Below, one piece after another: positions 22,326-36,786 of a stretch of 53,080 nucleotides of DNA. This stretch comes from Cognatiluteimonas telluris (lineage in GTDB: Bacteria; Pseudomonadota; Gammaproteobacteria; Xanthomonadales; Xanthomonadaceae). The notes beneath the pieces were generated by a model. The model was given only the letters and a program-made list of their open reading frames with translations. It did no database searches and had not been told where the DNA came from. The translations under genes and the position numbers were made by a program. Numbering within the stretch: the first letter of the stretch is position 1; the number at the start of each line of letters is the position of its first letter. Location of the stretch: NCBI RefSeq assembly GCF_011320095.1, contig NZ_JAANOY010000016.1:1-53080 (forward strand). Reading direction: 5' to 3'.

Positions 22326-22402
22326 TGGCGCGCCCGGAGGGATTCGAACCCCCGACCAATGGCTTCGGAAGCCACTACTCTATCCGGCTGAGCTACGGGC
22401 GC
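22326..22402 (-). tRNA. tRNA-Arg (anticodon CCG)
   Basis: A complete 77-base tRNA on the minus strand. The acceptor stem GCGCCCG pairs with CGGGCGC, followed by a G discriminator and an encoded CCA end. The D-arm is GCTC...GAGT. The anticodon arm is GTGGC-TTCCGAA-GCCAT, with anticodon CCG reading CGG (Arg). The T-arm is GGGGG-TTCGAAT-CCCTC, with a normal TTCGA loop. No intron or mismatch of note. It is a single gene, not part of a cluster. Confidence 0.97.
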
Positions 22403-33620: not shown

Positions 33621-34343
33621 ATGAACCGCACACTGCTGTTGCCGACCCTGGCCGTGACGCTCGCCGGCCTGCTCGGAGGTTGCGTCACCAGCGGGTACCA
33701 GTACCGCGATGGCACCGGCGATTACTACTATGGCCAGCCATCGACCGAGGTCTACGACCATGGCTACGGCGGCTATGGTGGGTACGGCTACGGTTATCCC
33801 GGCTACGGTTACGGGGGTGGCTGGGGCGGGAGCATCGGACTGGGTTACGGCTATGGCGGCTACGGGTATGGCGGCTACGGCTACCCGTGGGGCGGCTTCG
33901 GTTACGGTGGTTACTGGAGTCCCTACTATCCGCCGATCATCATCGTGCGCCACGGCCAGGGCCACGGCCACGGCCACGGCGACCACGACGACCACGACGA
34001 CGGCGGCGACACGCGGCCCAATCACGGCCATCGTCCGGACCCGCCGCCCTGGGGCGAGCGTCCCAAGCCGCCACGGCATCGGCCGATCCCGATGCCGCTG
34101 CGTCCTCGACCGGTGATGTCCGGGCCGTTGCCTTCGCGGCCGCTGTCGTCCAGCGTTCGCCCCGTGGCGTCGGCTCCGCTGCCGGCGGCTCCGATGCGGC
34201 GTCCATTGGTGCCGACGGCCCCGGTTCCGAAGATGGGCCGGCCCGATTTCCAGCCGGCACCGCAGCGAAACGAGCGTTCCCAGTCACGCGCGCCGGCGAG
34301 AGCCGAACGGGATCGCGACGAGCGTCGCATTTCCAGGCCCTGA
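33621..34343 (+). CDS. Gly/Tyr/His-rich outer-membrane-type lipoprotein
   Basis: A 240-residue protein. The N-terminal signal ends in the lipobox LAGLLGGC, with the lipidated Cys at about residue 21. The mature part is low-complexity: a Gly-Tyr block of YGYGG-like repeats (about 45-105), a His/Asp cluster (GHGHGHGDHDDHDD near 113-126), then a Pro/Arg-rich tail. The His/Asp block could bind divalent metal. A GAGGGGAC ribosome site is present. No family is recognised beyond general Gly/Tyr-rich lipoproteins of the order. It is divergent from the EamA gene. Confidence 0.75.
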   Translation: MNRTLLLPTLAVTLAGLLGGCVTSGYQYRDGTGDYYYGQPSTEVYDHGYGGYGGYGYGYPGYGYGGGWGGSIGLGYGYGGYGYGGYGYPWGGFGYGGYWSPYYPPIIIVRHGQGHGHGHGDHDDHDDGGDTRPNHGHRPDPPPWGERPKPPRHRPIPMPLRPRPVMSGPLPSRPLSSSVRPVASAPLPAAPMRRPLVPTAPVPKMGRPDFQPAPQRNERSQSRAPARAERDRDERRISRP

Positions 34344-34645
34344 GAGCGCTTGCGCTGGGACGGGGTCGGGCCCCAAGCTAGCCGCGGCTACTGACGGGCT
34401 GCGTCGCATTGCGACGCGGCTTGCGTCGCCTTCCATGTCGATGCCCGGCGGGGGTTCCCGGATCCCCCCTGTTCCGCTTCCCCGCCGGGCGTCGGCGCCT
34501 TTCGCGCGTTCCTCCGCGCCTCGTCGGCGATTCCATGCCGGCCATCCGCAGCGGACGGCTGCCTCATACACCCGCATCGCCGCCGCGTGGCCTTCGCCGC
34601 GGCCATCTGCGCACTGAATCATTCAGCCTGTGCTGGCCACGACAG
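34344..34645. other. Intergenic region upstream of a sigma-54 promoter, with strong dyads
   Basis: No convincing gene. Three copies of a GCGTCGC motif occur at 34401-34407, inverted at 34411-34417, and 34423-34429. The first two form a perfect 7-bp hairpin with an ATT loop. A 15-bp near-perfect hairpin (34439-34453 with 34480-34494, one T-G pair, 26-base loop) follows. These may be an activator (enhancer) site for sigma-54 or a terminator of the lipoprotein gene. Short open frames here look like chance. Confidence 0.5.
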
Positions 34646-34663
34646 TTGGCACGCTTCCTGCAT
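34646..34663 (+). promoter_or_regulatory. Sigma-54 (RpoN) promoter
   Basis: TTGGCACG (34646-34653) and TGCA (34659-34662) give the -24/-12 arrangement, with GG (34648-34649) and GC (34660-34661) exactly ten bases apart. This is a near-perfect match to consensus TGGCACG-N4-TTGC, differing only by C for T at the first base of the -12 block. The predicted start is near 34673. This is the best sigma-54 site I noticed in the window. Confidence 0.78.
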
Positions 34664-34672
34664 CATCTCCCC

Positions 34673-34786
34673 TGCACCCGACGTGGCAAGGCGTCAGGGG
34701 CGCCGACCAGGATTGGAACAGGGCTGGTCGCGCGCACGTCGGGGATGCCGGGGCCGAATGTCGGGGGACGTTCGGCCCCTTTTTTT
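34673..34786 (+). ncRNA. Predicted structured small RNA driven by sigma-54
   Basis: The transcript from the sigma-54 start to the intrinsic terminator is about 114 bases. It folds into a branched shape. A 9-bp perfect closing stem (34677-34685 with 34735-34743) holds two adjacent hairpins: a 4-bp stem GGCG/CGCC at 34690-34704 with loop UCAGGGG, and a 6-bp stem GACCAG/CUGGUC at 34705-34729 with loop GAUUGGAACAGGG. The terminator hairpin follows. Loops are G-rich and contain GGA motifs. No open frame of note lies in it. It could also be a leader/attenuator of mnmG, since the terminator is 110 bases before that ATG. I do not recognise a known RNA family. Confidence 0.6.
34750..34786 (+). terminator. 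Intrinsic (rho-independent) terminator
   Basis: GGGGCCGAA (34750-34758) pairs with TTCGGCCCC (34771-34779); inner GTC/GAC adds 3 bp around a GGGG loop after a one-base step. Seven T bases (34780-34786) follow. It is the only U-tract terminator I found in the window. Confidence 0.9.
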
Positions 34787-34884
34787 GCCCACTCTTTGCG
34801 CAGCGCGAGCGCACGCGCCAGCGTCGCCGCGACCGGGCCCGCCCCGGCGCAGGCAAGCACGACATGGTGCCGGCCGCCGCGCGC

Positions 34885-34890
34885 GATAAT
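34885..34890 (+). promoter_or_regulatory. Candidate -10 element for a leaderless mnmG mRNA
   Basis: GATAAT (five of six to TATAAT) is followed by GCGCCC and the mnmG ATG at 34897, placing ATG at +1. This gives mnmG its own promoter, independent of the small RNA upstream. No clear -35 is visible. Confidence 0.5.
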
Positions 34891-34896
34891 GCGCCC

Positions 34897-36786
34897 ATGC
34901 CCGAGTCCTTCCATCGTTACGACGTCATCGTCATCGGCGGCGGCCACGCCGGCACCGAGGCGGCGCTGGCGTCGGCCCGCAGCGGTGCGCGCACGCTGCT
35001 GCTGACCCACAACATCGAGACGGTCGGCGCGATGAGCTGCAACCCGGCGATCGGCGGGATCGGCAAGGGCCACCTGGTGCGCGAGATCGATGCGCTCGGC
35101 GGCGTCATGGCCCGCGCCGCCGATGCCGCCGGCATCCAGTGGCGCCGGCTCAACGCCTCCAAGGGACCCGCGGTGCGCGCCACCCGCTGCCAGGCCGATC
35201 GCGCGCTGTATCGCGGCTTCATCCGCCGCGCGGTGGAATCCCAGCGCAACCTCAGCGTGTTCCAGGCCGCGGTCGACGACCTGTTGATCGAAGGCGAGCA
35301 AGTGCGCGGCGTGCTCACCCAGACCGGCCTGCGGTTCACGGCGCCGGCGGTGGTGCTGACCGCGGGCACCTTCCTTGCCGGCCGCATCCATGTCGGCGAC
35401 ACCCAGTACGCCGCCGGGCGCATGGGCGATCCGCCGGCGACGACGCTGGCCGCGAAGCTGCGCGAGCGGCCCTTCGTCGTCGACCGCCTCAAGACCGGCA
35501 CGCCGCCGCGGATCGATGGCCGCAGCCTGGATTACTCGGTGATGACGCTGCAGCCCGGCGACGACCCGCGCCCGGTGTTCTCGTTCATGGGCACGCGCGC
35601 CGACCATCCGCGGCAGGTGCCGTGCTGGATCACCCACACCAGCGAACGCACCCACGACATCATCCGTGGCGCTCTGCATCGCTCGCCGCTGTACAGCGGC
35701 CAGATCGAAGGCGTCGGCCCGCGCTACTGCCCATCGATCGAGGACAAGGTGGTGCGCTTCGCCGACAAGGACAGCCACCAGGTGTTCGTCGAGCCCGAGG
35801 GCCTGGACGCCAGCGAGATCTATCCCAACGGCATCTCGACCTCGCTGCCGTTCGACGTGCAGCTGGAGCTTGTGCGCAGCATCCGCGGCTTCGAGCGCGC
35901 GCACATCACCCGGCCCGGGTACGCGATCGAATACGACTATTTCGATCCGCGCGGGCTGAAGGCATCGCTGGAAACCAAACCGATCGCCGGGCTGTTCTTC
36001 GCCGGCCAGATCAACGGCACCACCGGCTACGAGGAGGCCGCCGCGCAGGGACTCATCGCCGGGCTCAATGCCGCGCGCCACGTGCGCGCGCTGCCGGCGT
36101 GGTCGCCACGGCGCGACCAGGCCTACATCGGCGTGCTGATCGACGACCTCGTCACCCAGGGCACCACCGAGCCCTACCGCATGTTCACTTCGCGCGCCGA
36201 ATACCGCTTGCAGTTGCGCGAGGACAATGCCGACCTGCGGCTGACGCCGATCGGGCGCGAACTTGGCCTGGTCGACGACGCGCGCGCGGCCGCTTTCGAA
36301 CGCAAGCGCGAGGCGATCGAATGCGAGCAGGCGCGCCTGGGCGCGCTGTGGGCGACGCCGAACAACGCATTGGGGCGCGAACTGGCTTCGGTGCTGTCGC
36401 TGGAGCTCAGCCGCGAGAGCAGTGCGCTGGACCTGCTCAAGCGCCCGGAACTGGATTACGCGGCACTGCTGTCGGTGCCCGGGTTCTCGCCTGCGGTCGA
36501 CGACCCGGCGGTGGCCGAACAGGTCGAGATCGGAGTCAAGTATTCGGGCTACCTGCAACGCCAGCACGACGAGATCGCGCGCCAGCAGCGGCACGAAGCC
36601 CACGCGATCCCCGCGGGTTTCGATTACGCCGCCGTGCGCGGCCTTTCGGCGGAAGTGCAACAGAAACTCGAGCGTGTGCGTCCGGAGACCATCGGCCAGG
36701 CGCAACGCATCCCGGGCATGACACCGGCGGCGATTTCCTTGCTGCTGGTGCACCTGGCGCGCGTGCAGCGCGCGCGCGTGGCCTAG
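34897..36786 (+). CDS. mnmG: tRNA uridine-5-carboxymethylaminomethyl modification enzyme MnmG (GidA)
   Basis: A 629-residue FAD enzyme that works with MnmE to modify U34 in tRNAs. The FAD dinucleotide motif [15 protein letters not shown] is near residue 10. The conserved [17 protein letters not shown] near 46, the tRNA-reading region around [16 protein letters not shown] near 215, and the FAD-binding [19 protein letters not shown] near 367 are present. Length is normal (about 630). Start 34897 is preferred over the longer frame from 34630, which would translate the small-RNA and terminator region. Confidence 0.97.

Follow-up and report, generated by a model that had tools for sequence, protein, structure and literature searches.

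The small RNA asX1 beside mnmG: a conserved sigma-54-type promoter, an apparent local inversion and a candidate partner hairpin RNA

The asX1 locus, its fold and its distribution

The window analysed here is the whole stretch of 53,080 nucleotides from Cognatiluteimonas telluris. The locus described below lies between a Gly/Tyr-rich, lipoprotein-like gene (33621–34343, plus strand; named by eye) and mnmG (gidA; 34897–36786, plus strand; TIGR00136, 893.5 bits), which has a −10-like GATAAT at 34884–34889, 7 nt before its ATG (34897). A cmscan search of the window identified positions 34675–34785 of the plus strand as a member of the Rfam family RF02235 (Xanthomonadaceae sRNA asX1), with a score of 92.8 bits against a cut-off of 70. 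The match is full length (model positions 1–115 of 115, E 1.3e-12) and is the only one in the genome from which the window comes (G000). Besides asX1, only a tRNA scored above its Rfam cut-off in the window; a tRNA-Arg (CCG) is located at 22326–22402 on the minus strand.

A sequence-only reading of this DNA had recognised no existing family, and in this it was mistaken: the RNA is already catalogued and is not new. According to passages in papers that cite the original report, asX1 was catalogued by RNA sequencing and first reported from Xanthomonas campestris pv. vesicatoria 85-10 (Schmidtke et al. 2012), and its expression has been described in X. campestris (PMC4652430) and in Xylella cells (PMC12189769). 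Neither a function for asX1 nor a statement that it is under sigma-54 control was found in the passages of the literature searched, a set outside which the original asX1 report lies. The window copy does not differ in kind from the Rfam family, having the same fold and terminator and occurring as a single copy. What is new concerns its conserved sigma-54-type promoter, its apparent inversion, weaker homologues outside the family (in families f12 and f3), and a candidate partner RNA.

The extent of asX1, with a predicted 5′ end at about 34673–34675, is defined by the RF02235 match and by covarying stems. The closing stem P1 pairs 34677–34687 with 34732–34743, with one bulge, both in the predicted fold and in the cmscan alignment, and encloses two hairpins (34690–34704 and 34705–34729); this whole element (34677–34743) is seen in the cmscan alignment, the fold and the covariation. 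The loop of hairpin 2, UGGAACAGGG at 34714–34723, is complementary to the loop of a neighbouring RNA and is the proposed pairing site. The intrinsic terminator (34750–34785), identified by a terminator scan and by alignment, consists of a hairpin at 34750–34779 with a conserved G-rich loop, followed by seven T residues. The closing stem, two hairpins and terminator are thus as described in the sequence-only reading, except that its nine closing pairs are part of the longer, bulged P1; its claim that this is the window's only strong intrinsic terminator also holds, in that a scan of the whole window for near-perfect stems of 7–16 pairs found no other.

The fold was examined in an alignment of 59 of the 65 non-redundant asX1 sequences, the six divergent sequences L119–L124 being excluded. 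Paired cells make up 91.4% of this alignment, compared to 80.6% in shuffles and 35–44% in slid controls, and the stems covary across relatives, with changes on both sides in 25 of the 33 pairs, including 10 of 11 in P1. The least paired helix is hairpin 1, at 76.8%. The unpaired parts that are kept are the hairpin-2 loop AACAGGG, a GGGG-rich linker and the terminator loop GGGGGA.

RF02235 was found at E ≤0.001 in 124 of 398 genomes sampled from the order (110 of them over the cut-off); of the 124, 122 belong to the window's family f1, for which 129 genomes were sampled, and two to family f12. A new model built from the same 59 sequences, whose E-values are rough, matched 129 of the 398 genomes, namely 126 of the 129 f1 genomes, two genomes of f3 and one of f12. 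As a held-out set, 40 of 64 further genomes of the family, none of which had been used in the model, were searched and gave 34 matches. In one locus of family f11 (L215), the region upstream of mnmG contains a −24/−12-like TGGCCCGCTCCTTGC, then CAGGGGGAAT and a strong terminator, and is possibly a reduced relative of asX1.

The asX1 promoter and its candidate activator

An exact −24/−12 element, TTGGCACGCTTCCTGC, is present at 34646–34661 on the plus strand, with TTGGCACG as −24, TGC as −12, and the GG and GC ten bases apart. By itself this string is not beyond chance. A scan for TTGGCACGNNNNNTGC with at most one mismatch gave two matches in the window against 2.61 expected from shuffles, and in the whole genome the same pattern matched 29 and 32 times on the two strands, the reversed control giving 43 and 32 respectively; eight of the genomic matches are exact. 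It is conservation across loci, rather than the window string alone, that makes the sigma-54 promoter convincing. The sequence TGGC-N8-TGC occurs upstream of asX1 in all 124 loci first fetched, L121 included, and in 123 of the 124 it lies 28–31 nt before the start of the asX1 match. Among the held-out genomes, the 30 best-scoring loci of the 34 matching genomes were read and all 30 have it 28–29 nt upstream; the background rate is 0.0048 per 10 start positions. Each of the positions 9–30 nt before the element contains no more than 0.31 bits. Six further weak matches of the new model were inspected by eye; five carry the element at the expected place, and the sixth (G091) has none before its predicted start, with TGGCATGCTTGCTGC and then CACC located 76 nt further upstream.

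The RpoN promoter put forward in the sequence-only reading is therefore found in related species as well, and this conservation strongly supports the assignment of a sigma-54 promoter to asX1. On this assignment, asX1 would be transcribed by sigma-54 RNA polymerase from its own promoter, so that its synthesis would require an active enhancer-binding activator. A small RNA made from a sigma-54 promoter has a parallel in the CrcZ-type RNAs, which depend on sigma-54 and CbrB and antagonise Hfq-Crc, according to passages in PMC8657755.

The sigma factor gene rpoN has one match in the window's genome and at least one in 136 of 139 family genomes. The three genomes with no rpoN match are G414 (99% complete), G404 (82%) and G430 (86%). 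The near-complete G414 also has no asX1 match, and G404 and G430 contain asX1; in these two, rpoN is possibly missing through incomplete assembly.

Other exact −24/−12 matches in the genome are located at G000:C35:11270, G000:C89:45565, G000:C2:44710 and G000:C2:27571. These exact matches include one that precedes an exporter-type gene (identified by eye) by 57 nt, one before a pilA-like gene, and one about 1.3 kb from an activator gene. In genus g6 (L002–L015), the centre of a CRP/Clp-type palindrome TGTGA-N6-TCACA lies about 30 bp before the −24 element of asX1. Fourteen of the 15 g6 loci, matching it at 9 or 10 of 10 positions, and one g9 locus have it at a fixed distance, and it could serve either asX1 or the divergent mnmG.

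Four strong matches to sigma-54 activators were found in the window's genome: NtrC (confirmed by NCBIfam), a PilR-like protein, one that is followed by a sensor-kinase-like frame, and one of unclear role. The PilR-like gene lies near a pilA-like gene that has its own −24/−12 element. NCBIfam gave no model above cut-off for the PilR-like protein, whose provisional name follows from the neighbouring prepilin-like gene and sensor kinase. All 11 genomes that were compared have the PilR-like protein, and 10 have NtrC; in G347, which has both asX1 and the promoter, the PilR-like protein is the only strong activator match. Three of 32 loci (L192, L196 and L197) were left unclassified in the activator classification. 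These observations hint that PilR is the likeliest activator of asX1; the support is weak because PilR is also present in G333, in which asX1 was not detected. Upstream of asX1, dyads of NtrC-, GlrR- and PilR-like types showed no enrichment. A GTCA-N5-TGAC dyad occurs in three of seven pilin-type promoter stretches (L138, L182 and L176). The same dyad is also enriched downstream of the asX1 promoter, at a distance of 150–400 nt (31 of 154 loci compared to 0.5 in base shuffles), where it falls in the 5′ part of the neighbouring RNA unit.

Gene order and the neighbouring hairpin RNA

Among the 124 asX1 loci, mnmG was found in 123, and in 121 of these it is divergent from asX1. Only in the window's genome and in a congener (G225) is mnmG downstream of and co-oriented with asX1; in two further congeners, G335 and G278, the two are divergent as usual. 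In G000 and G225 the neighbouring hairpin described below keeps its side and orientation relative to mnmG, and in 32 loci a threonine-dehydratase-like gene (identified by eye) has the same side and orientation relative to mnmG as in the window. On the simplest reading, asX1 appears to have undergone a local inversion in these two genomes, together with its promoter and terminator. An asX1 that was inverted as a unit favours a self-contained gene and disfavours an mnmG leader. Together with the covarying stems, this upholds the independent structured RNA of the sequence-only reading.

The neighbouring conserved hairpin, located at 34437–34496 on the plus strand with the loop GGATCCCCCCTGTTCC at 34460–34475, was identified by loop match, conservation and covariation. 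The exact 16-mer GGAACAGGGGGAATCC is present in 141 of the 398 genomes of the order, once in each, and the reversed control gave none; the window contains a related form, GGAACAGGGGGGATCC, at 34460–34475 on the minus strand. A pattern covering both forms locates the hairpin loop in 147 of 154 loci. Being strict on the loop, this pattern did not match in L031, L054 (a short locus), L057, L307, L312, L313 and L316. In 145 loci the hairpin lies 157–606 nt (median 246) beyond the asX1 promoter, and in G000 and G225 it is inverted with respect to asX1.

The strand of the neighbour was assigned from its base pairs. For 121 distinct hairpins, the strand with the C-rich loop has 1571 Watson-Crick, 272 G-U and 23 A-C cells, compared to 1150, 160 and 103 respectively for the other strand, folded separately, where 119 of the 160 G-U cells come from a single pair within a G-run. 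In 62 aligned hairpins, 90.8% of cells are paired (84.5% in shuffles), 18 of the 21 pairs have double changes, and the C-loop strand has 128 G-U against 28 A-C cells. We therefore place the neighbour RNA on the strand opposite to the ancestral asX1, with the C-rich loop GGAUCCCCCCUGUUCC. The idea that the hairpin is a further domain of asX1 was dropped, since the strand test put it on the other strand.

The neighbour is possibly its own transcription unit, within 34350–34500 of the plus strand. A promoter-like TTGC(G/A) ... CAxxCT precedes it in 91 of 147 loci compared to 1.8 in base shuffles, for a pattern that was derived from the same loci; in the window a putative sigma-70-type promoter (TTGCGC, 18 nt, CAAGCT) lies at 34350–34379 on the plus strand. 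A perfect-stem terminator follows the hairpin in 85 of 147 loci, of which six resemble the asX1 terminator read backwards; such a terminator was found in none of the three loci of the window's genus (g1).

At the neighbour hairpin, Rfam gave no match at E 5 in the window, and in L199, L208, L212, L215, L220 and L221 none of its families reached E 1 there. In four f1 loci searched, the only match adjoining the hairpin is a sub-threshold one to BcKCsr7 in L003 (26.5 bits, cut-off 59). The hairpin RNA, present in 147 of the 154 loci examined, is a candidate for a new Rfam family. According to passages in PMC3039613, sRNA-Xoo4 is a 145-nt RNA with a single hairpin in a 184-bp intergenic region; it might be the neighbour RNA, though an intergenic region of 184 bp does not fit the locus here.

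At least 80 named contigs contain the 16-mer, and 33 of them were examined. A −24/−12 element with an asX1-like start is located upstream in 22 of the 27 that belong to the order, including Xanthomonas, Stenotrophomonas, Pseudoxanthomonas, Lysobacter, Luteimonas, Arenimonas, Rehaibacterium, Dyella, Rhodanobacter, Luteibacter, Dokdonella and Tahibacter, and also in one Proteobacteria MAG. Of the five order members with no upstream element, two (L335 and L353) were flanked by fewer than 110 bases, and another is Lysobacter profundi, in which the order is inverted. Among the 33, the element and start were absent from the Paenibacillus, Arthrobacter, Streptomyces and Marinobacter contigs and from a Myxococcales MAG.

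Complementarity of the two loops and modes of action

The longest complement between asX1 and the neighbour hairpin is 9–11 nt in 142 of the 147 loci (at least 10 nt in 101) and 6–7 nt in the other five (L094, L121, L123, L302 and L317). In 99 loci it is exactly GGAACAGGGG with CCCCUGUUCC, and in the two f12 loci the loop complement is the 6-nt CAGGGG. The complement is retained after the inversion of asX1. In a single genome such a complement proves little, because shuffled hairpins reach at least 9 nt in 74 of 735 cases (10%) and at least 10 nt in 20 of 735, and random stretches of the same loci, some possibly holding asX1 itself, reach 9 nt in 71 of 735. The 147 matches are also not independent, because both loops are conserved. 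The weight of the complementarity comes from the fact that the match falls on two conserved loops in nearly all f1 genera.

When pairing energies are corrected for accessibility, the neighbour outranks all 500 window segments tried in G000; in each of the ten other loci tested (11 of the 147 in all), 0 or 1 of 250 segments equal or beat it. The full pairing site in the neighbour has poor predicted accessibility, about 4e-5 in G000.

We tentatively propose, with a confidence that falls somewhat short of even, that asX1 is a stand-alone RNA transcribed by sigma-54 RNA polymerase which antagonises the neighbour by pairing between its hairpin 2 and the apical loop of the neighbour. Both RNAs would have to be transcribed in this organism and to meet in the cell. 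The hairpin-2 loop (GGAACAGGG in the window) would pair with CCCUGUUCC at 34467–34475 on the plus strand, its partner by complementarity, so that asX1 would act via base pairing and not by protein titration. The pairing would antagonise the neighbour RNA, much as the cis-encoded CJnc180 acts on CJnc190 in Campylobacter. The latter, from Campylobacter jejuni, are an antisense pair with extensive complementarity, according to passages in PMC8687705, whereas the pairing proposed here is loop to loop and outlasts the inversion of one partner, and the antagonism is presumed. The neighbour itself may be a regulator that works through its C-rich loop, and probably has another job, because the loop is conserved beyond the paired stretch.

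A broader version of the proposal, which we consider possible and hold with considerably more doubt, is that the two RNAs form a conserved switch beside mnmG throughout the order to which Xanthomonas, Lysobacter, Dyella and Rhodanobacter belong, in which a sigma-54-induced asX1, probably dependent on PilR and type IV pili, and an uncatalogued C-loop hairpin RNA would silence each other through a kissing loop of 6–11 nt, an arrangement that would still work after one partner was inverted. The conserved promoter class, the natural inversion and the nearby matching loop make asX1 part of a testable regulatory pair, and sigma-54 control would connect the two RNAs with a signal, for instance type IV pili or nitrogen status.

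Several other modes of action were considered. The sequence-only reading had suggested C-rich mRNA targets; a C-rich RNA target looks right in kind, and the best candidate is the neighbour hairpin RNA. It is somewhat unlikely, but deserves serious consideration, that asX1 acts in trans, its CAGGGG and other G-rich loops pairing with C-rich stretches in several mRNAs, and that the match to the neighbour is incidental or the trace of an old duplication. Such a role would be consistent with the several conserved G-rich single-stranded segments of asX1, and has a precedent in sX13, a loop-acting RNA with many mRNA targets according to passages in PMC3771888; the rank of the neighbour above all 500 window segments argues against it.

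The precedent could itself be the target, with the G-rich segments of asX1 acting as decoys that sponge the C-rich loops of sX13 (RF02232), a reading that we regard as doubtful. sX13 was detected in 132 of 139 family genomes, and uses 4C/5C loops on 4G motifs according to passages in PMC3771888; its loops contain CCCCUG and UCCCCC, the complements of CAGGGG and GGGGGA in asX1. Of the seven family genomes with no detected sX13, the two that are near complete (G414 and G427) also have no asX1. However, 24% of null segments equal or better the energy of the asX1–sX13 pairing in G000, and 1–21% do so in the 18 other genomes tested. Moreover, sX13 is present and asX1 undetected in G247, G333, G345, G415, G422, G433 and G434, and asX1 is present and sX13 undetected in five incomplete genomes (G404, G416, G437, G448 and G451). 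The neighbour resembles sX13 in its C-rich apical loop, but sX13 is made up of three stem-loops and is encoded at the polA locus (passages in PMC3771888), whereas the neighbour is one long hairpin beside asX1; an Rfam search of the window and four f1 loci gave no RF02232 match at the hairpin. The G-rich strand of the neighbour is a top 0.5% partner of sX13 in eight of ten genomes tested (4% in G012 and 1% in G011), a ranking with no meaning because the neighbour RNA is assigned to the other strand.

Titration of CsrA/RsmA, which had been suggested from the GGA motifs, is very improbable: GGA occurs four times in the window copy and 23 of 124 asX1 copies have one or two ANGGA, but ANGGA is absent from the window copy and from 101 of the 124, the most conserved loop core is AACAGGG, and in genus g7 hairpin 2 contains no GGA. 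Least credible of all is a role for asX1 as a 5′ leader or attenuator of mnmG, the other possibility raised in the sequence-only reading, since its position upstream of and co-oriented with mnmG in the window is set against the divergent order of nearly all loci and an asX1 that ends in its own terminator; as a conserved function, attenuation of mnmG is ruled out by orientation, with the two co-oriented in 2 of 123 loci.
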